Assembly: GCA_020444065.1 (NCBI GenBank) | Contig: JAHLLQ010000002.1 | Coordinates: 62,001-126,000 of the forward strand | Length of the DNA stretch: 64,000 nucleotides | Direction: 5' to 3' | Origin: a bacterium | Lineage (GTDB): Bacteria > Sumerlaeota > Sumerlaeia > SLMS01 > JAHLLQ01 | In this document: positions 948 to 25,526 of the stretch, in pieces | Layout: every line of letters starts with the position of its first letter | How positions within the stretch are numbered: position 1 is the first letter of the stretch | Program-made: the position numbers and the translations under genes | The notes under the pieces: generated by a model | The model's database searches: none | What the model saw: only the letters and a program-made list of their open reading frames with translations | Told to the model about the DNA's origin: nothing

Positions 948-2953
948 TCCGTCGGCTGCAGCCAAGCGCCCGAGAATAAGAACGTCAGCATTCGCTCGTC
1001 ATCGGAGTCTTCCATCGAGTCTCGTGGCACCCACGTCGGATGGTCGAGTTCCAGGATCAGTTGCTCGTGGCTCTTCTTGAACTCAATCTCGAATGTCCGG
1101 TCCGAAGCTCCGCTTCCGATTTCCTGCTTCCACTTCGTACTTTCCTTCGGAACGGATATCCCGAAGGTCACAGTCTCCTCAGGATACGGCGGTCGGTACA
1201 TTGCGATGGTCAACTTGTAGCGACCCGCAGGCACAGGCTTGTCGAACCGAATCCTGACCGGACCATCCACGCCCCATCGAAAGACAGCCTGCGAGTTTCC
1301 CTCGAGCCCTGACCAGCCATCGAACGCCGACTGAGCCTCTGGAGTCGCGACTGCTATTGCGTCATCGGGGACTTGACGGCTCAGGGGATTTCCTTCGGCC
1401 AAGGATCGCGCGAGGCTGTGTTTGATTCCTCGAAGTCGATAGACGGAGTATTCCTCGGCGAACCTTGGGAAATCGCCCATGTCCGTCTTCTCCGCCAGAT
1501 CCCCGCTCTCCGCGGAGGAGCGCAGCAGGCCCTCGTTGAGCCGTTCGATGTCCATCCAGATGCTTGCTCGTACGATTGTCACATCGGTGACCGAATCGGG
1601 AAGCTCCGCAAGGTCATCGATGGGGTGGACATCGAAGTCCTTCAGCGCCGGTTTCATGTAGGGGATCATTTCCTCCGGCATCATGTAGATCGCTTCCCCG
1701 GCGGGCGGAAACAGCCATGCCGATTCCTGCCTCCAGGTGTACAGACCTCCCTCCTTCAACTCGATTTGCGTCTTCTGAGTTTGTCCCAGAACGGCGGCCC
1801 CGACCCACGGAATCACAACGATCCATACCCAGACTTGCCGGCCGCCGAGTCGTGCAATTCCCCAGGCACCTAGCGCGACGAGCCCGATGATCCAAGGGCC
1901 GATTGTGAAGACGGGATAACGCGGACCATGAAAGATGGGCGCGATTTCCAGGTAATCTACTCCCCACTGGATCAGCACATTCACGATGGTCATCAGAATC
2001 CCCGCAACAGCAGTCGCCAGCAGGGGAGATGTACCGTTGCGACTCCGGCCGCAAATCACGCCCATAGCCGCCAATGCCAATGGAACAACCAAGGTCAGGA
2101 TTCCTACGATGAACATGGGCCAGTTGCTGCTCCACGGCGCATCTGCATTCAGACGCCCGAGCGGATACCAGAAGGAGAAGACATGCCAAAGATTCACCCA
2201 CGTCGCCGGCGTCATCCAGTCCGTGCCCTGACTCAGCGACCGAAGCTGGTGGCGAATGACGACTAGCCACGGAAGAAAGACCAGGAGAGCCACGACCTGT
2301 ACTCCCAATCCCCAATGAAACCACCTCGTCTTCCAACGCTTCTTCGAGATCGTTCTCACCAACCAAAGGATTCCGAGCATTCCAATCACGAGCGATGGGA
2401 AGAAGTGCGTCCACATCGCCGCAATCGCAGCTAATCCATACAGAACCCAAAGCCGTTCGGTACGTCGATCATCTGGCTCCCTGCTGTCCAGGATCATCAT
2501 GAGCAGGAAACACGTCGTCACCATCACGATGCCGATCAGGTATCCTCGAATGTCCTTGGCGCTCTGGAGGACCTGGGCTGATCCCACCAGGCACCAGGCA
2601 GCCGCGGTTCCCGCGGAACGACCGAGCAAGCGCCGCCCGCCGAACCATACGATCGCTCCGAATATCGCCAGCAACACAGAATTCAGAAGCCGGCCATAGA
2701 ACACGCTCGGCTCCGATCCCAGTGTATCTCCCAGGGCTAGCCACCCCTTGAGCAGCAGATAAAAACCCGGCGGATGACGATCGGCCGCTGTCATCTCGAT
2801 CATTTGCCGCAATGGCAAGTTCGCCATCAGAACCGAGTAGACTTCGTCGATCCAGAAGCTTTGCTGGATCGATATCCGATACAGATCGACCGGCATTACC
2901 ACTGCCAGCAGCAGCAACAGGCCTCCCCAGGATTTGCGGGTTTCGGAGTTCAT
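944..2953 (-). CDS. GT-C fold membrane glycosyltransferase (ArnT/PMT-like) with C-terminal beta-sandwich
   Basis: Integral membrane sugar transferase of the GT-C type, which normally uses polyprenyl-phosphate sugars on the outer face of the inner membrane. After a first helix near residues 10-25 comes the family's acidic motif in the first periplasmic loop (FWIDEVYS), then [15 protein letters not shown], then about ten further hydrophobic segments up to roughly residue 390. The last 150 residues or so are soluble and beta-rich ([22 protein letters not shown]), resembling a carbohydrate-binding-like sandwich. The ATG at 2953 is preferred because the 19 upstream residues are not hydrophobic and the protein then begins just before helix 1. 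Acceptor and donor are unknown. The gene is divergent from ispG across 145 bp and shares its last four bases with hisF. Confidence 0.8.
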
Positions 2954-3098
2954 GGTGGCAAAACAATCGTAAATGACGCTCGGCGGGCGCAAGGAAATCG
3001 AGCGGCACACTGCTGGCTTCGGCCTTGCAGGCGTGGGATTGTGGGGGAAAGACTACCTCGCGTCCGAAGGGGACAAAGACAGACACAGGAGCACCTTC

Positions 3099-6462: not shown

Positions 6463-8679
6463 TTGCATCCCAAACGATATCTCGCGCTTCTTGTCCTGCT
6501 GATTCTGACACTGGGAAGTGTCCTCCACGCGCAGGATGAGCAATCGGCTGAGGGTGTTTCAGAGAATCAACCCTTCCGCGTTGCGCTGACCGGAAAGTAC
6601 CCACCCTTCAGCTTCTACAGCGAGCAAGGCGACCTGCAGGGCTTCGACGTCGATGTTGCGCGCGAGATTGCCCGCCGCCTCGGACGTCCCAGCGAAATCG
6701 TCACGACGGAGTGGGCCGGCATCCTCGCCGGACTGCAGGCGGGGCGCTATGACGCGATCATCGGCTCCATGGCGATCACGCCCGAACGACAGAAGGCCGT
6801 CCTCTTTTCGCGCCCCTACTACATCTCGGGGGCGCAGTTGTTTATCAACGAAAAGGACGCCGGCGAAATTCACAGCATTGACGATCTCGATGGGCAGTCC
6901 GTCGGCGCGACACTCGGATCAACGTATCAACACTACGTCGAGAATAACTACCCGGACATCACCGTTCGCTCCTATCCCGGCGAACCGGACATTTTCCAGG
7001 ACATGCGCTCCGGCCGCCTTCAAGGTTTCGTGACGGATCGCCTCGTCGGGCAGTACAACGCAAAGCTCGCAGGCGAAGACTACATCCCCGTAGGCGATCT
7101 TCTCTACCAGGAGCGCATCGGGATTCCGGTCACGTTCGACAACTCTGACCTGCAGCCGAAGATCAACGATGCGCTCGATGCGATGGAGCGCGATGGGTTC
7201 CTTCAATCGCTTCACAAGAAATGGTTCGGGACTACAAAGACATTCGTCCCGATGCTCGATGATGCGGAAGAGGCTGTACCAGGCGATGCGCAGCTCTTCC
7301 AGGTCGCGCTGACTGGCAAGTACCCACCATTCAGCTTCTACAACGACGAGGGCGAACTGCAGGGTTTCGATGTCGATGTCGCGCGAGAGATCGCTCGTCG
7401 CCTTGGGCGTCCATGCGAGATCGTGACCACAGAGTGGGCCGGCATTCTCGCGGGATTGCAGGCGGGACGCTATGATGCAATCATCGGCTCGATGGCGATT
7501 ACGCCCGACCGGCAGAAAGCCGTCCTTTTCTCGCGCCCGTATTACATCTCGGGCGCGCAGCTCTTCATCAAGTCCGATGACGCCGACAAAATCCACAGCA
7601 TCTACGATCTGAAAGGCGAATCCGTTGGAGCCACACTCGGTTCGACTTACCAGCATTACGTCGAGGAGAACTACCCCGACATCACTGTTCGTTCCTATCC
7701 GGGCGAGCCGGATATCTTCCAGGACATGCGATCCGGTCGCCTGAAAGGTTTCGTGACCGATCGCCTCGTCGGACAATACAACGCAAAACTCGCCGGCGAG
7801 GATTATATTCCAGCCGGTCCGTTGCTCTACGAAGAACGAATCGGTATCCCAGTGACCTTCGAGAACAAGGATCTGGAACCGAAGATCAGCGCTGCCCTTC
7901 GAGCGATGGAGAGCGAGGGCTTCCTGCAGGGCCTCCACAAGAAGTGGTTCGGGACGACGCGAACCTTCGTGCCGATTGAGGACTCCGAATCGGATTCGGA
8001 ACAGCAGGAAATCGAATCGGCAAATCTCTCGTGGGGTCTGATTGCATCGAAACTGCTGAAGGGCTTTGGCATCACTCTCTTGTGTGCAATCGTTGCCATC
8101 GTTTGTGGCTTCCTGCTCGCCATTCCAATGGGTGTTGGAATCAAGGGCGCTCCGGCGCCCTTCCGCACGCTTCTCATCATTGTGAACGACTTCATTCGAG
8201 GCACACCGGTCCTCGTTCAGCTCTTCTTCGTTTATGCCGGGCTGCCGGCCATAGGAATCAAACTCTCGCCTATCGAGGCGGGTATTCTGACGCTGACAAT
8301 CAACGCAATGGCCTACATGGCGGAAGTCGTTCGTTCCGGCCTGATGGCTGTGCCACAGGGACAAACGACCGGCGCTCTTGCGCTTGGCCTTTCGAAACTT
8401 CAGGCATTCATCCACGTCGTTTGGCCCCAGGCCTTCCGTATCATGGTGCCGCCACTGATGAACAGCGTCGTCGCCCTCCTGAAAGATACGGCACTGCTGA
8501 TGGTCATTTCTGTGCCGGAAGTCATCACAGAAGCGCAGAAACTCATCTCCATCACGTACAGGCCACTCTTCTTCTACGCCCTCGTGGGTCTGCTGTTCTT
8601 CATCGTTGCCTGGCCGCTCATGAAGGCCTCGCAACGCCTGGAAGATCGAATTCGCCGGAAGGGATACGAGAATGCTTGA
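6463..8679 (+). CDS. Polar amino-acid ABC transporter: signal peptide, two tandem substrate-binding domains and permease in one chain
   Basis: A 738-residue fusion. Residues 1-23 form a signal peptide ending HAQ. Residues about 36-263 and 277-503 are two SBP_bac_3 (periplasmic amino-acid binding) domains, each with the family marks YPPFSFY, GFDVDVAREIA, IIGSMAITP and FSRPYY. Residues about 520-738 are a HisMQ-type permease with several helices and the coupling motif ALALGLSKLQAFIHVVWPQA. GlnPQ of lactic acid bacteria has the same arrangement, so it likely imports a polar amino acid such as Gln, Glu or Arg; specificity is not readable. The start is TTG at 6463, supported by AAGGAG six bases before it. 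The stop overlaps the ATPase gene by eight bases. The two binding domains differ at only about 32 of 228 residues. Confidence 0.93.
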   Translation: MHPKRYLALLVLLILTLGSVLHAQDEQSAEGVSENQPFRVALTGKYPPFSFYSEQGDLQGFDVDVAREIARRLGRPSEIVTTEWAGILAGLQAGRYDAIIGSMAITPERQKAVLFSRPYYISGAQLFINEKDAGEIHSIDDLDGQSVGATLGSTYQHYVENNYPDITVRSYPGEPDIFQDMRSGRLQGFVTDRLVGQYNAKLAGEDYIPVGDLLYQERIGIPVTFDNSDLQPKINDALDAMERDGFLQSLHKKWFGTTKTFVPMLDDAEEAVPGDAQLFQVALTGKYPPFSFYNDEGELQGFDVDVAREIARRLGRPCEIVTTEWAGILAGLQAGRYDAIIGSMAITPDRQKAVLFSRPYYISGAQLFIKSDDADKIHSIYDLKGESVGATLGSTYQHYVEENYPDITVRSYPGEPDIFQDMRSGRLKGFVTDRLVGQYNAKLAGEDYIPAGPLLYEERIGIPVTFENKDLEPKISAALRAMESEGFLQGLHKKWFGTTRTFVPIEDSESDSEQQEIESANLSWGLIASKLLKGFGITLLCAIVAIVCGFLLAIPMGVGIKGAPAPFRTLLIIVNDFIRGTPVLVQLFFVYAGLPAIGIKLSPIEAGILTLTINAMAYMAEVVRSGLMAVPQGQTTGALALGLSKLQAFIHVVWPQAFRIMVPPLMNSVVALLKDTALLMVISVPEVITEAQKLISITYRPLFFYALVGLLFFIVAWPLMKASQRLEDRIRRKGYENA
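6568..7974 (+). repeat. Direct duplication of the substrate-binding domain (about 684 bp per copy)
   Basis: Copy 1 spans about 6568-7251 and copy 2 about 7291-7974, separated by a 39-bp linker that encodes an acidic stretch. The translated copies are about 86% identical by eye. Many third codon positions differ, for example throughout the segment encoding QAGRYDAIIGSMAITP. The duplication is therefore not very recent, and the protein sequence has been held constant by selection, possibly with some past gene conversion. Confidence 0.9.
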
Positions 8680-9364: not shown

Positions 9365-10504
9365 TTAGCCCTTCACAACATTCCAGAATCGCTCCGCCAT
9401 CTTCTGCCAGTTCAACTCGCCTTCCGTGCGCTTGATGCCGGCGGAACTCATCTTCTTCAGCAGGCGAGCGTCGCGCATGATTGCGACGATATTCTTCGCG
9501 ATCGCCTTCCCGGTCTCTTCCGGCGTGGCACCGTGCGGGACAAGAAAACCCTCCACGCCATCGGACATCAGATCGCGCACTCCCGGCGTATCGACCGACA
9601 CAACCGGCCGCCCCAATGCCATGTATTCGCAAATCTTAAGGACCTGGTTGTGATACAGCCATGGGCGCGGCTGATAGGCATGAAGGAAGACTGCGCAATG
9701 GGCCAACTCCCTCATGGCGTTCCCCTGGTTGCGATCGCCAAGGAATTCCAGGCCGTCCGCGCAAATATTCCGCATCTTCATTTCTGCAGCACCGATTGTC
9801 TCGCCGATCAGCGTCATCTTCATGCCCGGCAACTTCTCTCGCACCGCTGCCAGTGCATAGGCCAACTCCTCCGCACCCTTGTCCAGCGAGACGTACCCGA
9901 CATACCCCAGGCGATTTGCACTCGCCTCGTGCAGCGGCTTGCGGAATCGTTCCAGCCGCGCCAGATCGGCCGCATTTGAAAGCGCCGCGATCTTGCCCTC
10001 CGGCAATTGCAGGAAATCCAGCACGCCCGGATTGATAAACGTGACAACGCGCTTGGCGCGCGCCAGCCAGCGCTTCGTCATGAACGTGTGAAATGACCGT
10101 GCGATCCGGAGCAGTTGATTTCGATCGGCATCGCGATAGCGCTCGCCGAACGGATAATCCTCACACACAGCAAACCAGGGAACGCGCAATCGTTTGGACA
10201 ATCGCGAGGCCGTGACCAACGACCGAACGTCGAATGCCGAAACAATTCGATCAAATGGCGTATGACGGTGGGCCTCGGTGCCTTGTGCAACGGCGTCTCG
10301 TACGAACGCCTTCCGCCCTGAGGATACGGCAATCCAACGCTCGAAGTCATCGACCATATCGTCCGGTGGCGATCCGCTGCTGGCGGACAACAATGTCGTC
10401 TTCGACCGCATTAACAGTGCGCGAGGCACTTGCTGATATGCGTCCGAACGCGTGAAGTTTTCGATCGGTTCTGGCCAGATCAACAGCGTGCGCGTTTCAC
10501 TCAT
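9365..10504 (-). CDS. Glycosyltransferase family 4 (GT-B fold)
   Basis: Cytoplasmic retaining sugar transferase of 379 residues. The C-terminal half carries the nucleotide-sugar-binding features of the family: LGYVGYVSLDKGAEELAYAL, then LEFLGD near residue 245, the acceptor-loop stretch VFLHAY, and ICEYMALGRPVVSVDTPGVRDLM with the conserved Glu. Last gene of a five-gene minus-strand operon; its start overlaps the FkbM methyltransferase by eight bases. Donor and acceptor cannot be told. The linkage to a methyltransferase and other transferases suggests exopolysaccharide or another surface glycan. Confidence 0.85.
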   Translation of the reverse strand: MSETRTLLIWPEPIENFTRSDAYQQVPRALLMRSKTTLLSASSGSPPDDMVDDFERWIAVSSGRKAFVRDAVAQGTEAHRHTPFDRIVSAFDVRSLVTASRLSKRLRVPWFAVCEDYPFGERYRDADRNQLLRIARSFHTFMTKRWLARAKRVVTFINPGVLDFLQLPEGKIAALSNAADLARLERFRKPLHEASANRLGYVGYVSLDKGAEELAYALAAVREKLPGMKMTLIGETIGAAEMKMRNICADGLEFLGDRNQGNAMRELAHCAVFLHAYQPRPWLYHNQVLKICEYMALGRPVVSVDTPGVRDLMSDGVEGFLVPHGATPEETGKAIAKNIVAIMRDARLLKKMSSAGIKRTEGELNWQKMAERFWNVVKG

Positions 10505-11354
10505 GATGGAAAATCGCCCGCCACGTTTCGTTGCCCGGCAGCGCCTTGGGCAGAGGCTCTCCCTTTTCCGTTATTCCGGCATAGCGACGGTCCTCCAGCC
10601 ACCAGATCAGTTCCTCCGGCGAATGCCCGGCCTTCGTTAGAGCCTCCGGGTGAATCTCGATTGCGAACAGCGGATGATAGCGCGCGATCGTTTGCTCGGC
10701 GCCACGCAGCACCTCGAATTCGTAGCCCTCGACGTCGATCTTGATCATGTTCGGGGCCAACTTCTTCTCATGCACCAACCGGTCGATCGTCGTGGCCTCG
10801 ATTCGGCGCTTCTCGCTTTTCCGTCCTTCCAGGCCTTCCGTCGCAGGAACGGCCGTACTGTGTCCGCCGCGAAAGAAATCCGATTCGGTGACGCACGCGA
10901 ACTCGCGCCGGCCTGGAACAGAAGCCATCAAACGTCCATCCGTGGAAATGCGATCGCCCATCTCATTCAACTCGATGTGCTTCTGCAGGAACTCCGCATC
11001 CGTTGGATTGGGTTCGATCGCCAGCACACTGCCTTCTTTCCCGACGCGCCTGGCAAAGCCCAACGCAAACACGCCGCGGAATGCCCCAACGTCGATGATC
11101 GTCATTCCGGGGCGAACGCGTTTCATCGCGGCCCTGTAGAAATCGTGCTCGTACGTCAGGCGCGCGCTGTAAACGCCCAGCAATCGAAAGCGATCCATCT
11201 CGTTGACGCGCACTCGCAATCCACGCCCGAACGTCAGCAATTGAATCGCGCCGCGGTACGGCACGCGTACGCCATCCCACAGCCAGCCCAGATGCGAGAA
11301 TCCGGGTAGCTGACGCATTCCTTGGGCAATTCGAGCGCACAGCTCAGCGATCAT
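10497..11354 (-). CDS. FkbM-family SAM-dependent methyltransferase
   Basis: 285-residue methyltransferase of the FkbM family, often found in polysaccharide clusters where it O-methylates sugars. The SAM-binding motif I is TIIDVGAFRGVFALGFA near residue 85, followed by VLAIEPNP (motif II), and the family's late hallmark MIKIDVEGYEFEVLRGA. The ATG at 11354 overlaps the stop of the preceding gene (ATGA), and the stop overlaps the next glycosyltransferase. This coupling and the absence of upstream similarity decide the start. The substrate is inferred from context to be a glycan precursor. Confidence 0.88.
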   Translation of the reverse strand: MIAELCARIAQGMRQLPGFSHLGWLWDGVRVPYRGAIQLLTFGRGLRVRVNEMDRFRLLGVYSARLTYEHDFYRAAMKRVRPGMTIIDVGAFRGVFALGFARRVGKEGSVLAIEPNPTDAEFLQKHIELNEMGDRISTDGRLMASVPGRREFACVTESDFFRGGHSTAVPATEGLEGRKSEKRRIEATTIDRLVHEKKLAPNMIKIDVEGYEFEVLRGAEQTIARYHPLFAIEIHPEALTKAGHSPEELIWWLEDRRYAGITEKGEPLPKALPGNETWRAIFHHE

Positions 11355-13345
11355 GTTTCCACCGGTGCGTTCCGCGGGCCCGAGCGCTCTCGCACCCATA
11401 CACAAGCCCTGCGAAGTGTCTCCTCCGCCCCGATGCACAGCCATGGCAGCAGCACAACTTCATACTGCGGCCACTTGGTCGGCCAAAGAAACAGGAAAAT
11501 CAACGTGATCCATCCCGTGACGGCAATCACCGGCAGGCGTCGCATCGCCAACACACAACCTGCCAACCCGAAAACCAGAATCGACTGGTCGATCAGCATC
11601 CAGAATGGCCGGCCCTCGTACCCCATGAAATACCACATCCAGACGATCGGCTGATACCATTGATACTCCGCATCCACGACCAACTCGCTGTGGCTGAACT
11701 CGTTATGGAACTGGAATCGTCCCGCGATTCGCGAGACCAGATCCGAGGTCCACAAGTGCGCGTCCGTCGCAACCATCACAACGAGCGCCCCGACAACGTA
11801 CCCGATGAAGATCGGAACCAGCCACTTCCGCCGCTTCGCATCCTGCACCAGCCAAACGACCATCCCGACGGCCACACCCATCGGAGCGACCGCCGCGAGG
11901 TACTTCGTGGACACAGCCATGCCTGCACCCAGCGCAGAGATTCCCAACCATACCCATGGTACCCAACGCTTGCCTGTATTGCGCTCCACACCTTCGCGTG
12001 CTGCAACGAATCCCAACACGCAGACGACGGCAAAGAAGGCTGCCGGACTGTCCAGATAGGCAATGCTCGTGTAGAACACGCCGAGGCCGGAGCTGGCCCA
12101 GAGCACTCCTCCCAGAGGCCAACGCCACGCGATCGCCATCGCCGTGAACATCGCCAGGATCACCGCCACAAGGCGCGATGCGTAGAAGGCCTTGTCCCAA
12201 TCCTGCAGTCCATTGCCCGCGCGAATAGCTATCGCGTACAGTTCCACACCCAGCCGCGGATGCTCCGTGGTGCGCTGCTCATAGACCCACGCCGAGTAGT
12301 CGCCCGCTGCCATTGCGTGAGCGAACGTCATTGCAATCGGCACGTAGGCAAACTCATCGATTTCGTACTCATTTGAAACCATGTGATCGTAACGAACCGA
12401 GAACGCCAGGAGACCGATCCAGCCAACAATCAGAAGACGACGCCACCCCACAAGCGCAACTCCGTCCCTACTTTTGAGCAGCAGGCCGATCCCGATCAAT
12501 AATCCCGTCAGCGCGCAGAACAGCGTTGTTGTCAACATCCCCGCGCCCAATCGCGGCGGGCCGTCGATGTCCATCCCGTACTCATTCCGGGCGATCCCGA
12601 TCAACCCCTCGGCCTGCGGTGCCGGCGATCCCGAGTGACGTAGCACCGTCGCTTCATCGATTCGCTCGTGATAATCGATCCCATCCCCGCCGTTGTTGTC
12701 CCACTGCTCGTTGGGCTCCAGCAGATGGAACACATAGTCCATCGTCGAACCGCGCGGGATCGTCAGTTCCAGGACGAACCGCCCCGGCGCCGTCTGGCGC
12801 AGCGGCGTCTCCGCCGCATTCTCTCCCAGCCGGTTGCTGCCTTCCGGCATCAGTTTATCAGACGGACCCACCCATCCGTTCAGTCCCCAGATAATCGTCA
12901 TGCGATCGACGCCCGGGGCACGGTACTCGATCCGCACCGGGACGGGCTCCGTGGAAGGAGCGTCGCCCCTCTGCGTCCCAGGCGTGGCGGGAGTAACCAG
13001 CAGGATGGAGTTCTCGAACGGTTCTTGCGCTTCCGGATTATCCGGATCGGGAATCCACGTCTCGCCGTTCAGGACGAACTTGTACTCATACTCGCCCGGC
13101 TGCAGCGCCACGAGGGTCGAATACGTCCCATCGCCATCCGGATCGGTCATGGGATGAGCGATCTGGCTCCATTGATTGAACGAACCCGCGACGACGACTC
13201 GATTCACCGGCAACTCGGGCGTGAATTCGAACGTCACCCAGCGCATGCCCTCATCCGCAGCGCCACCCAGTTCGTACGCGCCGGGCGCAACCTGCGCCAG
13301 CATCACTGCCAATAGTAACGCGAACCATGTCGTCAGCTTTCCCAC
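11351..13345 (-). CDS. Fusion of a glycogen-binding (CBM48/AMPK-like) domain to a GT-C membrane glycosyltransferase
   Basis: 664 residues. A signal peptide (about 1-23) is followed by an E-set domain with the glycogen-binding signature: VAGSFNQWS near residue 53, DGDGTYSTLVALQPGEYEYKF, and NGETWIPDPDNP. This is the CBM48/AMPK-beta pattern. A second beta-rich region (about 135-240, VRIEYRAPGVDRMTIIWG, MDYVFHLLE) looks like another E-set. From about residue 265 there are roughly ten membrane helices with the GT-C acidic loop (EYEIDEFAYVP) and EHPRLGVELYAIA. The carbohydrate-binding part should face the periplasm. It is coupled to fkbM by a four-base overlap and follows a GT4 gene by 36 bp. The combination is unusual: CBM48 normally accompanies cytoplasmic alpha-glucan enzymes. 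The acceptor may be an alpha-glucan-like polymer (inference). Confidence 0.82.
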   Translation of the reverse strand: MGKLTTWFALLLAVMLAQVAPGAYELGGAADEGMRWVTFEFTPELPVNRVVVAGSFNQWSQIAHPMTDPDGDGTYSTLVALQPGEYEYKFVLNGETWIPDPDNPEAQEPFENSILLVTPATPGTQRGDAPSTEPVPVRIEYRAPGVDRMTIIWGLNGWVGPSDKLMPEGSNRLGENAAETPLRQTAPGRFVLELTIPRGSTMDYVFHLLEPNEQWDNNGGDGIDYHERIDEATVLRHSGSPAPQAEGLIGIARNEYGMDIDGPPRLGAGMLTTTLFCALTGLLIGIGLLLKSRDGVALVGWRRLLIVGWIGLLAFSVRYDHMVSNEYEIDEFAYVPIAMTFAHAMAAGDYSAWVYEQRTTEHPRLGVELYAIAIRAGNGLQDWDKAFYASRLVAVILAMFTAMAIAWRWPLGGVLWASSGLGVFYTSIAYLDSPAAFFAVVCVLGFVAAREGVERNTGKRWVPWVWLGISALGAGMAVSTKYLAAVAPMGVAVGMVVWLVQDAKRRKWLVPIFIGYVVGALVVMVATDAHLWTSDLVSRIAGRFQFHNEFSHSELVVDAEYQWYQPIVWMWYFMGYEGRPFWMLIDQSILVFGLAGCVLAMRRLPVIAVTGWITLIFLFLWPTKWPQYEVVLLPWLCIGAEETLRRACVWVRERSGPRNAPVET

Positions 13346-13381: not shown

Positions 13382-14542
13382 CTACGAGGCGCCAGACGAC
13401 GGCGCCAATCCCAGACTCGCATGAAGCCGCGGCGCAAGCGCCCGGTAAGCGCGATCGAAATGAAAGCGCTCATCAAAGCACTTTGCCGCCGCCATGCGAT
13501 ATGCCGACTCATCGGCCAGGATTCGCTGAATCGCTTCCCGCAACTCCCCCTTCTCCACGCGCGCACAGACGCCCGCGCCGGAACCCTCTACCAGGTCCTG
13601 CAAGCTCGCCAGCGGCGTTGCGACCACCGGCAAACCAGCCTTGAAGTACTGCGCGATTTTCCCCGATGCCGTTCCGACCGATTGGAACGTCAGGCCATCT
13701 TCGCGATACAGCGCGATCCCCACGTTTGAGCCCCGACACATTCGGTGCAACTCATCAGCATCCGTGGGCTTGTCAAAGACGACGATTCGGCACTTCGCGC
13801 GCTTCTTCCATTCATCCATGGCCAACGCTTCGGTGCGGGACAGAGGCACGCGGCTGTTCAGCACCAACGTCCATTCCGCAGGCCAGTAGTCCGCCGCTTC
13901 TGCCAGAAGCTCCTTAATACGATTCGGCGGTGTCAGCGACCCTGCATACAGAATAATCGGCGCCGATGGGCTGATGGCCAGCCGTTGGGCAAACTCTCCC
14001 GTGCGAGCAGCGCCGTCCGCGTCCCCTCGCGGAGAGTTGGGTAAGGCCGCCGTCTTCTCTGCCGAGATGCCGAAGAGGCGCGAGTGCTCCGCTGCGCGTT
14101 CCGCCGAGGGGGAAATGACCATCGCAGATCGCCGCGCCAGCAATGCCTCGAACTTGTTGGCGATCTTGTTCTTCAATCCCGTGAAGACCGGCGGGACGAA
14201 GATCTCCGTCGAGAGATAAACCCGCGGACCGGCGATCCCCGCGCGGCGCTTCAATCCCGATGCCGCCAACAGCCCGCCGCGATCGATCGCCAGGACGCCC
14301 GCGAACTCGGCGGCCCGACCGGAAAGGTGCTTGTCCGCTTGCCTGACAAAATCGAGCAGGCGTCCGTCCGTTGAGAAGCGCTCGACCGTCACGCCTGCAG
14401 GATCTGATGGTTCGCCCGGTGCCTCCAGCGTCAGAAGTTCCACCCCCACGCCGTCCTCCGCCAGACACTCCAGCAGATTCCAGACGCATGGCGTCGACTC
14501 CAGGTAGGCCGACGGATACAGGGCCAGCACGCGATCAGCCAC
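13382..14542 (-). CDS. Glycosyltransferase family 4-like protein
   Basis: 386-residue GT-B enzyme. The C-terminal domain has IILYAGSLTPPNRIKELL, VVFDKPTDADELHRMCRGSNVGIALY and the donor-binding end ASGKIAQYFKAGLPVVATPLASLQDLV. The Lys in SGKIAQYF takes the place often held by the EX7E motif region, so the assignment to GT4 is by overall pattern rather than by a perfect motif. The second gene of the operon, it overlaps the upstream GT2 gene by eight bases and lies 36 bp before the CBM48/GT-C fusion. Product unknown; probably a surface glycan. Confidence 0.8.
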   Translation of the reverse strand: MADRVLALYPSAYLESTPCVWNLLECLAEDGVGVELLTLEAPGEPSDPAGVTVERFSTDGRLLDFVRQADKHLSGRAAEFAGVLAIDRGGLLAASGLKRRAGIAGPRVYLSTEIFVPPVFTGLKNKIANKFEALLARRSAMVISPSAERAAEHSRLFGISAEKTAALPNSPRGDADGAARTGEFAQRLAISPSAPIILYAGSLTPPNRIKELLAEAADYWPAEWTLVLNSRVPLSRTEALAMDEWKKRAKCRIVVFDKPTDADELHRMCRGSNVGIALYREDGLTFQSVGTASGKIAQYFKAGLPVVATPLASLQDLVEGSGAGVCARVEKGELREAIQRILADESAYRMAAAKCFDERFHFDRAYRALAPRLHASLGLAPSSGAS

Positions 14543-15449
14543 CGCCGCCTCCGTCCATCCGATACGTCGGGTTCCAGGCCTTCGGGATGTATAACGGAAG
14601 CGCCGCCAACCGCACTAATGCGCCCACGGCCAACGGCCACTCCGCCAGCGCCTTTGCGTATTGCCCCGCCGCGGCCGCCGGATGCCCAGCGTTTCGATAC
14701 AACGTACCGACAAACGTTCTTCGCGCTGCGACCGTCGAACGTCCCCAATTGGCGCGAATTTCCTCTGCGTATCGATCGCACAACATGCGATAACCTTGCG
14801 GGTTGCCCGCCGCCCGTCGCCCGGAGTGCGCATGCGTGATCGCCAGTTCCTCGGGCACGATCGCAAACTCAAACTCCTCCGCCGCCCGCAGAAGGAATTC
14901 GTACTCCTGGCAGGAGAACATGTCTGCGTTGAATTCCCCGACGCGGTCGAAGACCGCACGTCGAATCAGTAGTGTCGCCGAGGTTCCAAAAAACTGCCTC
15001 AATAGATGCACATAAGCGTCGCCGTCGATTCGAGGTTCAACGCGCCTTTGCTGGCCCGAAGAGTCTTGCTCGAAGTACCAGCAGCTCACGACTCCCGGCA
15101 TTGCCTTGCCATGTTCTTCAGCATCATGCACCAACGCCATCTGCGCCTCGAGCTTCCGAGGAAGCCATTCGTCATCCGAATCCTGAAGGGCGATCCATGG
15201 CCCGTGCGACGCATGCAGCCCCGTGTTACGCGCGGCGTTCCCCCCCCGATTCTTCTCGTGACGCAGCAGTTGAATCCGGGGATCGATCGACGCCGCGCGC
15301 TCCACGACTTCCGCCGTTGCGTCCGTCGACGCGTCATCCACGACAATCAGTTCCCAATCCTCAAACGTCTGAGCGCGCACGCTTGCGATCGCGCGCCCCA
15401 CCAGGGACTCCCGATTGTGAACTGGCAGAATCACCGAAACCGTGGGCAT
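14535..15449 (-). CDS. Glycosyltransferase family 2 (GT-A fold)
   Basis: 304-residue inverting transferase. It starts with the family's first strand and loop (VSVILPVHNRESLVGRAIAS), then LIVVDDASTD for nucleotide binding, GGNAARNTGL, and the metal-binding DSDDEW. The start at 15449 is preferred over the one 24 bases upstream because GGAG lies seven bases before it and similarity begins at once. First gene of the five-gene glycan operon on the minus strand. The 246 bp upstream of it hold the control region shared with the divergent PLD-like gene, including a perfect 10-bp palindrome at 15602-15611 of unknown meaning. Confidence 0.88.
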   Translation of the reverse strand: MPTVSVILPVHNRESLVGRAIASVRAQTFEDWELIVVDDASTDATAEVVERAASIDPRIQLLRHEKNRGGNAARNTGLHASHGPWIALQDSDDEWLPRKLEAQMALVHDAEEHGKAMPGVVSCWYFEQDSSGQQRRVEPRIDGDAYVHLLRQFFGTSATLLIRRAVFDRVGEFNADMFSCQEYEFLLRAAEEFEFAIVPEELAITHAHSGRRAAGNPQGYRMLCDRYAEEIRANWGRSTVAARRTFVGTLYRNAGHPAAAAGQYAKALAEWPLAVGALVRLAALPLYIPKAWNPTYRMDGGGGG

Positions 15450-15695
15450 CGCGTCTCTCCGCCCGGTATTCATCTCCCGGCATCGTCGCCAGCCCGGCCA
15501 CCCGCCGCAACGCCAGACTCTCGGCGGGGAGCGGCGGAATCAGATCGGATGGGCCGACGGACGGAATACTCCCCAGCCTCTGAGGCGCTGGCTTCCTGAT
15601 AACAATATTGTCACTGTGTTCCGTCTTGCGTCCCGCCTGCTCTTTGAAGGATGTGTGGGGTGTAAATAAACTCGCAAAGCTGGGGGAGATGAGGC

Positions 15696-23044: not shown

Positions 23045-25279
23045 TCACGGCGATGGCAGCGTTGGGTAGGCAACCATCCCGATCGACCACCCCAGCAGAA
23101 CTTCCGCATCGACCCGATCGACAACGCCATCCGAGTTCACGTCCCATTCGAATGTGTAGGTTAGCAGTCCGCCCGCAGCCAGGACTGCCCGGGCCATCTC
23201 AATCCCATCCGTCATGTTGGTTACCCCGTCGCCATTGTAGTCGCCGTACGACGGTTTCTTATTCGGATTGTGCGGATTCGATCCCAGCAGATCCTCAATC
23301 TGGTCCGTGAACCCATCGCCATCCGTATCCGTGTAATCGATGGGGGTTGGAGACGGTGTGACCGACGGCGTTGGGCTGGGAGTATCGGACGGTGTCGGCG
23401 ATGGCGTATCCGATGGCGTTGGGCTGGGCGTATCACTTGGAGTCGGCGATGGCGTATCGCTTGGCGTCGCAGTCGGCGTGTCTGAAGGCGTTGGTGTTGG
23501 GGTATCCGACGGCGTTGGACTTGGTGTGTCGGAAGGAGTTGGGCTGGGTGTGTCGCTCGGAGTGGGAGACGGCGTATCGCTTGGCGTCGCAGTCGGTGTG
23601 TCCGATGGCGTTGGTGTTGGCGTATCCGAGGGTGTTGGACTTGGAGTATCCGACGGAGTCGGGCTGGGAGTGTCGCTGGGAGTTGGCGACGGCGTATCGC
23701 TTGGCGTCGCAGTCGATGTGTCCGATGGCGTTGGTGTTGGGGTATCCGATGGTGTTGGACTTGGAGTATCCGACGGAGTCGGGCTGGGAGTGTCGCTCGG
23801 AGTCGCAGTCGGAGTGTCTGAAGGCGTGGGTGTGGGAGTGTCCGACGGTGTTGGACTCGGAGTATCTGACGGCGTGGGACTTGGTGTATCGCTTGGCGTC
23901 GGCGAAGGCGTATCGCTCGGCGTCGCGGTTGGAGTTTCCGTGGGAGTCGGGCTCGGCGTTGGCGTCGGCGTCGCGGCGCCGGGCAACTCCAGCGTCAGGA
24001 TGTTCGCAAATCCGAACCCGCTATAGGAAGGAAACGCAATGATCCGGCCGCCGTCCGCTGACTGACGAATCGACATTTTGGTGAATTGCCCGCCCGGAAA
24101 GTAGGTCTTCCGCGTGATCCACGACGTATTTGTCCCTGTGACAGAAGTATCGAAGGAATAAAGTCGGCTCTCCGCAGTAGCGCTGCTTGCCGAAGTCTTC
24201 ATCATGAACGCGCCGTAGCTGCCGTCGCCGGTCAAAACCAGCGGGTCGACGTTCTCCTCGCCCAGGTGCAGATCGGCCGACTCGGGCATGAAGCTGCCCC
24301 GATACGTCAAAGTCCCATTGCTATTGATCGTCAGGTAATTAACGCCGACGGGCAATCCACCCGCAGGCGATTGGCCTACGAAGGCCAGCGTGTTACCCCG
24401 TGCCAGCATGAAGTCGCCATCCCGGATCGTACCCGCCGTCGTGATATCGCCGGTAATCGAAGTCAACGTCCCCGTCTGGCTTGCATCGAATCCCATCAGC
24501 AGCGAGCCATTCGGGATCGCGAGATAAAGGTAAGCCGAATCGTCGGAGAAACACGTCGCCCCCCCCGTCAGAATCGACAGCGATCGCGTGTAAGTCGCCA
24601 CTTCGGTCAGTGCGTACGTCGTGGGATCGACCGAGTAGAGATAGAGTTGGGCTTCGCTGCTTCGGCCCGGCTGAAACAGCGCCACCTTCGACCCGTCCAG
24701 CGAGATATCGATGTCGTAGATCAACCCATTGCGATTCTGGAAGTTGGCGAATTCGCCGTCGGGCGAGACCCCGAAGACATATCCGTACGTTTTGCTGCCG
24801 GTCGTATAGCCGCGAAGGATCACGAATCGCCCGAGCGGATCCACCTCCATTTCTTCCCAGTAGTCCGGGGGCGTCGAAACCGTCACCGTCCCCGCATTGC
24901 TGATCGCTCCAGTTCCTGGAATGATATCGAAGAAATCGACATTCCCTGATGGCAGCGATGTTGCCACGCCCAGGATCCCGTTTCGCGAAATCGCGCTCTG
25001 CGTCGAATTCGGAGACGATGCGGCGGTTCCCAGCGTCGTTGAGAACGTCCCAGTCCCGTTGGCATCGGCTGTCACACCCTTGCCGCCGGTCGATGGGTCA
25101 GTCCCCGCGCTGAACAGCAGATTCCCGCTCCCGTCCAGCGAATGAAAGAACATCTCCGACTGGCTGAACGTGCCAGTGCTGGTCAGATCCCCGGGCGCGG
25201 CCACCAGCGTGGCGGCCCCCGAAAGAAGCGCAAATGATAGTATCGGCGCCGCGATCCGGCGCAGGGCAGAGTTTCGCAT
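23045..25279 (-). CDS. Secreted beta-propeller-like protein with Ser/Asp/Thr/Pro octapeptide repeat and C-terminal dockerin-like module
   Basis: 744 residues. Signal peptide (about 1-28, ending VAA). Residues about 30-430 are beta-rich with blade-like units ([45 protein letters not shown]), resembling a lactonase/WD-type propeller. A Thr/Pro linker leads into 24 copies of an eight-residue unit, SDTPSPTP and variants. The end has a thrombospondin-3-like [19 protein letters not shown], then two calcium-binding loops spaced as in type I dockerins: [22 protein letters not shown] and [19 protein letters not shown]. The ATG at 25279 fits the signal peptide; a TTG 18 bases upstream is possible and neither has a clear Shine-Dalgarno. 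Probably a surface or secreted adhesin-like protein. No cohesin gene is seen here. Confidence 0.82.
23342..23917 (-). repeat. 24 tandem copies of a 24-bp coding repeat with a 120-bp higher-order period
   Basis: The repeat encodes SDTPSPTP units. Read from the protein N terminus, variants occur in order: three or so SDTPSPTP, one SDTPTPTP, one SDTPTATP. This block of five units recurs, giving block sizes 5, 4, 5, 5 and a final run of 5 ending SVTPSPTP. One unit reads SDTSTATP. A further 20 residues of irregular Thr/Pro sequence precede it. Silent differences between units show it is not a fresh expansion throughout. Confidence 0.93.
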
Positions 25280-25526
25280 GTGGACAACGATCCCCAAATC
25301 GGAATGAAAGCAGGAAGAAAGCCTATAAGCTCTAAGGGGTTAATGCTAGCCCGATTCCAGGGTTTTACTCCGACTTGCCCCGCGTCCACACAATCGCTAG
25401 ACTTCACTTCGTGTTGAGATGGAATGGCTCTCGCAAACCCCGGCATTTCGGGGCCGATTGCGTGCGAGAGTGTGTCATCCCGCCCAAGTATGCCCTCGGG
25501 CGCGAGCCTGGAAGGAGCAGTCCGGC

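Follow-up and report, generated by a model that had tools for sequence, protein, structure and literature searches.

An AMPK-type carbohydrate-binding module joined to a predicted GT-C transferase in a glycan-assembly operon of a Sumerlaeota bacterium

The DNA analysed here, referred to throughout as the window, is a stretch of 64,000 nucleotides (contig JAHLLQ010000002.1, positions 62,001 to 126,000) from a bacterium of the Sumerlaeota (assembly GCA_020444065.1). Five reverse-strand genes, coding in order for a GT2 and a GT4 glycosyltransferase, a fusion protein, an FkbM-family methyltransferase and a second GT4 glycosyltransferase, form a coupled operon in which three of the four junctions are overlaps of 4 to 8 nt (Table 1). 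The probable ATG start of the fkbM-type gene overlaps the stop codon of the fusion gene (ATGA). No gene for a transporter, an amylase or a flippase was found among the five, and the operon is a general glycan-assembly operon. The initial annotation had described the third gene product as a signal peptide, a CBM48/AMPK-type domain and a GT-C enzyme encoded within a glycan operon, and all these elements were recovered in the open reading frame 13345-11351(−). The order of parts, that is, signal sequence, AMPK1_CBM domain, second beta domain, helix and GT-C core, is real.

Table 1. Genes of the operon and parts of the fusion protein (positions in the window; aa, residues of the fusion protein)
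Feature	Position	Strand	Details
GT2 glycosyltransferase, first operon gene	14535..15473	−	Pfam, E 1.5e-34
GT4-like glycosyltransferase	13382..14542	−	8-nt overlap with the GT2 gene
CBM–beta domain–GT-C fusion protein	11351..13345	−	664 aa, GTG start
Signal sequence/N-terminal hydrophobic helix, aa 1-22	13280..13345	−	MGKLTTWFALLLAVMLAQVAPGA; putative cleavage
AMPK1_CBM (CBM48-like) domain, aa 34-118	12992..13246	−	Pfam, PDB alignment
Second beta domain, aa 133-232, weakly Ig_N_CWD1-like	12650..12949	−	Pfam below cut-off, model strands
Extra transmembrane helix, aa 266-290	12476..12550	−	Model helix, hydropathy, loop charge
GT-C core, aa 298-652 (predicted)	11390..12454	−	pLDDT ~95, Foldseek, family alignment
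D330-E331, first periplasmic loop	12353..12358	−	Invariant across GT-C family alignments
E361-H362-P363 motif	12257..12265	−	H and P invariant, E >90%
WPTKWPQY family signature, aa 621-628	11462..11485	−	Family alignment
FkbM-family methyltransferase	10497..11354	−	TIGR01444, E 2.5e-27
GT4 glycosyltransferase, last operon gene	9365..10504	−	Pfam, E 3.7e-17; 8-nt overlap with the fkbM-type gene

As anticipated, the first beta domain matched the AMPK1_CBM profile (PF16561) over residues 47-110 (37.6 bits, above the cut-off of 26.8; E 2.5e-9); with the CBM_48 model it scored 22.2 bits, marginally (0.2 bit) short of the cut-off of 22.4. The best sequence matches in the PDB were to a type II pullulanase (E 2e-6) and to the CBMs of AMPK-beta (E 1e-4). 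In AMPK beta 1, W100, K126, W133 and N150 are critical in glucan binding (PMC4032982); in our alignment these residues correspond to W59, K89, W97 and N112 of the fusion protein. The initial annotation had staked its reading on a CBM48-type match and on glucan-binding aromatic residues, and both the AMPK1_CBM match and the two tryptophans, W59 and W97, are present. The same four residues are kept by nearly all the AMPK-type CBMs that we aligned, including that of an anti-sigma-like protein, and are therefore not specific proof of glucan binding; as judged from the sequence, they indicate competence for glucan binding rather than its use. Matches from viral contigs, which look like T9SS-type repeat proteins, served as alignment rows only. 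Structure prediction gave a divided answer: the AlphaFold2 model of residues 25-262 was weak overall (pLDDT 59), and within this low-confidence model the first domain fitted the AMPK CBM 1z0m with an rmsd of 1.8 Å over 61 residues. A Foldseek search with this model, weak as it is, matched it to maltogenic amylase, branching enzyme and AMPK beta. The domain is like the glycogen-binding domain of AMPK-beta (CBM48) in its above-cut-off AMPK1_CBM score and in having all four contact residues, and differs from it in its predicted extracytoplasmic location and in being carried by a GT-C enzyme.

For the second beta domain, the sole Pfam match was to Ig_N_CWD1, from alpha-glucan water dikinase (24.4 bits, below the cut-off of 27); no Pfam match to CBM25 or CBM53 and no PDB sequence match was obtained. 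Strands are present in this part of the AlphaFold2 model, which is poorly modelled. The segment WDNNGGDGIDYH (residues 215-226) bears what we take to be a resemblance to the starch-binding motifs of CBM25/53. It also resembles the sequence FDNNGGNGVDW, found in a secreted GH13 enzyme that the genome encodes as well (locus L048) and that itself matches CBM53 below cut-off (E 0.006). On these sequence likenesses, the second domain is probably of a starch-binding type.

The initial annotation had also held that CBM48/AMPK-type domains normally sit in the cytoplasm. The source genome, in which we found at least 19 AMPK1_CBM matches, shows the opposite: all 16 of the other proteins that we read look extracytoplasmic, with a signal peptide or lipobox (recognized by eye) or with the domain placed in a periplasmic loop, and six of the 16 are secreted GH13 enzymes (amylases). 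An extracytoplasmic AMPK-type CBM is therefore the rule in this genome, and the unusual part is the fusion to a GT-C enzyme. The module is widespread and promiscuous in the clade, where it also occurs on endonuclease/phosphatase-like, thioredoxin-like and FGE-like proteins. A MalG-like ABC permease encoded in the source genome (L042/L163, contig C2, ~559.2-560.7 kb; BPD_transp_1, E 1e-12) has a CBM48/AMPK1_CBM inserted in its first periplasmic loop, and its gene adjoins those for a binding protein and a MalF-like protein. A 163-residue lipoprotein made up of little more than a single AMPK-type CBM is encoded 1.3-1.8 kb before the start of the window (L164, 8208-8699).

A linker follows the second beta domain and leads to the extra helix. 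The loop charges of the GT-C core fit the expected topology (hydropathy and loop charge). We infer that the beta domains lie in the periplasm and that helix 266-290 of the model returns the chain to the cytoplasm before the core begins, which would link a periplasmic N terminus to the right membrane side of the core. The core itself was modelled by AlphaFold2 with a pLDDT of ~95 (45 sequences). Its best Foldseek match was ArnT (5ezm; E 2.5e-5, probability 1.00), followed by Pmt4, ALG12, Pmt1-Pmt2, OST and EmbB, and the top 23 PDB matches were all GT-C enzymes (probability 0.99-1.00). Judged by its model, the multi-pass part has a GT-C fold. The PMT_2 match that the initial annotation had looked to for this part was not obtained: neither PMT_2 (PF13231) nor PMT matched the protein at E ≤ 1, and the core falls in a separate family. 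D330-E331 and E361-H362-P363 lie in the first periplasmic loop of the core, which is acidic. In family alignments of 58 and 45 sequences D330 and E331 are invariant and E361 is conserved in more than 90%; by analogy with other GT-C enzymes, D330-E331 is the predicted catalytic acid pair. The fusion protein therefore shares with ArnT/PMT_2 and Pmt (GT83, GT39) its best fold matches and acidic residues in the first periplasmic loop, and differs from them in belonging to a family of its own, marked by WPTKWPQY. A further GT-C enzyme, this one of the PMT_2 type and with a soluble C-terminal domain, is encoded ~8 kb from the fusion gene (window 1000-2960, reverse strand).

Among 386 genomes only two relatives of the core were found (E 1.8e-14 and 2.4e-12), in genomes that match Oscillochloris (Chloroflexota) and Citreicoccus (Myxococcota). 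With a GT-C-only alignment of the fusion protein and these two relatives as the query, 65 family loci were collected from named genomes, mostly of Chloroflexota, some of Myxococcota and one of Acidobacteriota; a contig scan of named genomes with the whole fusion protein gave no match. The hallmarks of the family are the motifs DE..Y, EHPPL and WPTKWPQY, and none of its invariant residues is missing from the fusion protein. By sequence, the core is a member of this distinct family of Chloroflexota and Myxococcota. From the source genome, which has over 30 GT-C genes and more than 30 PMT_2 matches, the family profile, which includes the fusion protein, picked that protein only (E 1.9e-98); in 38 class relatives it found no member. 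As to the distribution of the fusion, to which the initial annotation had pointed as a check, no second case of a CBM joined to a GT-C enzyme was seen in the 38 class relatives, the 386 genomes or the 65 family loci. Two frames of similar length considered as orthologous fusions proved to be an esterase with CBMs (672 residues; genome G022, L037) and an FGE-like protein (671 residues; genome G002, L012), neither of them a GT-C enzyme. A match in genome G156 (L174) was set aside as a generic GT39-like protein lacking the family signature, and a long N-terminal extension of an Archangium member (L144) was attributed to an overlong frame rather than to a further domain.

Of the 65 family loci, 28 code for a GT-C domain with a MalF-like sugar permease fused to its C terminus, usually followed by a MalG-like gene (MalF being the nearest NCBIfam, matched below its equivalog cut-off), and 22 for one with a Reg_prop beta-propeller, also C-terminal; the remaining members are standalone or cut. 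The permease fusions are those of loci L115, L117, L119-L121, L123-L127, L129, L131, L133, L135-L138, L142, L145, L146, L148-L150, L152-L155 and L159 (Chloroflexota). The propeller fusions (L098-L114, L116, L118, L122, L130 and L162) often lie between GH13 and GH57 genes, and their 65 neighbours include 21 GH13 enzymes, 17 ABC permeases, nine GH57 enzymes and four binding proteins. A GH13 or GH57 gene is nearby at 16 of the 22 propeller loci, 7 of the 28 permease loci and 1 of the 15 standalone loci, and for the GH13 enzyme adjoining locus L100 the nearest relative is a maltodextrin glucosidase. Several of the permease fusions lie in a conserved housekeeping region (uvrC-prfA-prmC-tsaC), so that the maltodextrin context is not universal in the family. 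These proteins share the GT-C family and its invariant residues with the fusion protein; they differ in carrying a C-terminal permease or propeller instead of an N-terminal CBM and in often being encoded in maltodextrin operons. Some of the permease fusions are encoded within an SBP-MalF-MalG-GH13 operon, which then holds a second MalFG pair. At three loci (L119, 4781-5950; L125, 4819-5919; L128, 218-1309) a standalone GT-C paralogue lies directly upstream of the GT-C–MalF gene, placed as if the two worked as a pair.

We suggest, with a probability of about one half, that the fusion protein is a GT-C transferase that uses a polyprenyl-phosphate sugar and holds an alpha-glucan-like acceptor outside the membrane. 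The signal sequence would carry the two beta domains into the periplasm, with the one extra helix tying them to a core whose active site would face the same side. There, a sugar would be taken from a polyprenyl-phosphate carrier, a donor that the modelled fold points to, through D330/E331 and E361. The beta domains would hold an alpha-1,4-glucan-like chain as acceptor or anchor; this chain could be starch, maltodextrin or an alpha-glucan-like product of the operon itself. Topology, donor, acceptor and glucan binding are predictions in this proposal. The proposal draws on the AMPK1_CBM match with its contact residues, on the second-domain match from an alpha-glucan protein, on the GT-C fold, and on the company that AMPK-type CBMs keep elsewhere in the genome, where secreted GH13 amylases carry them and a MalG-like permease holds one in a loop. 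The maltodextrin context of the GT-C family uses no CBM and lends the alpha-glucan part independent support.

Precedents exist for the arrangement. In the CBM-bearing GT-C enzymes EmbC, AftD and ORF12, the founder of GT136, it is the CBM that binds the acceptor (PMC11127046), as we propose for the beta domains here. The mycobacterial and corynebacterial arabinosyltransferases EmbA/B/C and AftD likewise combine a GT-C core with extracytoplasmic CBMs; their CBMs, however, are of other families and in other positions, the acceptor is an arabinan, and EmbB is only a weak fold match to the core (Foldseek E 4e-3). ORF12 of Citrobacter youngae shares a GT-C enzyme, a CBM that binds the modified glycan and a polyprenyl-phosphate-linked donor (PMC11127046), but its CBM is C-terminal rather than N-terminal and its donor is a pentofuranose supplied by partner genes, of which the five-gene operon has none.

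A less probable, still tentative, explanation gives the CBM-like domains, as beta-sandwiches, a structural or protein-docking role; the GT-C enzyme would modify the operon's non-glucan surface glycan, and the alpha-glucan signature would be inherited and unused. The promiscuity of the module in the clade and the general nature of the operon fit such a role, and secreted CBM48 modules on CE1 esterases bound none of the glycans offered to them and have close relatives without starch binding (PMC8040265). Retention of all four contact residues in the fusion protein argues against it, and it would leave the link between the GT-C family and maltodextrin transport in another phylum as a coincidence. 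That link bears on the alpha-glucan-binding transferase with some uncertainty: in a maximum-likelihood tree of the family the fusion protein stands apart on a long end branch (2.7) with no firm place, so that the family function may not carry over to it, and the absence of a transporter and an amylase from the operon makes the transfer uncertain as well. The protein may have changed in function and now act on the glycan that its operon makes.

The presence of Pmt4 and Pmt1-Pmt2 among the nearest folds raises the further idea of a PMT-like protein O-glycosyltransferase, by which exported proteins such as secreted CBM/GH13 enzymes or binding proteins are glycosylated, the CBMs recruiting them through shared glucan chains. 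PMT_2 (PF13231) is matched by 10 of 58 family members and PMT (PF02366) by three, and the Chloroflexota copies adjoin binding proteins and permeases. Yet ArnT, ALG12 and OST match about as well, no peptide-binding feature was identified in the fusion protein, and the operon is made of glycan-assembly genes; we consider this role quite improbable. That the fusion is absent from all other genomes examined might also be explained by a gene-model or assembly artefact joining two adjacent genes. This is scarcely credible, as the gene is a single open frame with a strong Shine-Dalgarno sequence (AAGGAGGAG) close 5′ of its GTG start and a coupled downstream gene, and the predicted topology requires the extra helix. 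Its two halves are uniform in GC (0.63 and 0.60) and in GC3, and it lies on an 864-kb contig, leaving no sign of a chimera.

Beyond the alpha-glucan-binding transferase itself, a broader and rather unlikely idea is that one lineage of GT-C enzymes has specialized in alpha-glucan outside the cytoplasm. A lipid-linked sugar would pass to maltodextrin or starch chains at the membrane, or be exchanged with them, and this step would be coupled to the MalFG importer by permease fusion in Chloroflexota and to the substrate by the N-terminal starch-binding domains here. If true, this would add to starch use a lipid-linked membrane step that is absent from current models. GT-C transferases with acceptor-binding modules have so far been tied to a few cell-wall and O-antigen glycans; here an AMPK-type glucan module is found on one, and its family recurs, even fused to the permease, in maltodextrin import operons, where a transferase of lipid-linked sugars is unexpected. 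Identifying the product would uncover either an overlooked modification of extracellular alpha-glucans or a part played by the GT-C fold in sugar uptake that is new. Among the papers searched, none joined CBM48, GT-C and periplasm, and none joined GT39, maltose and Chloroflexi.

Two other genes of the window have unusual layouts. One (6463-8679, forward strand), which adjoins an ATPase gene, codes for two near-identical tandem solute-binding domains followed by a permease domain. The other (23045-25297, reverse strand) codes for a secreted protein with a long linker of SDTPSPTP repeats, and the repeat gives rise to long false open reading frames on the opposite strand.
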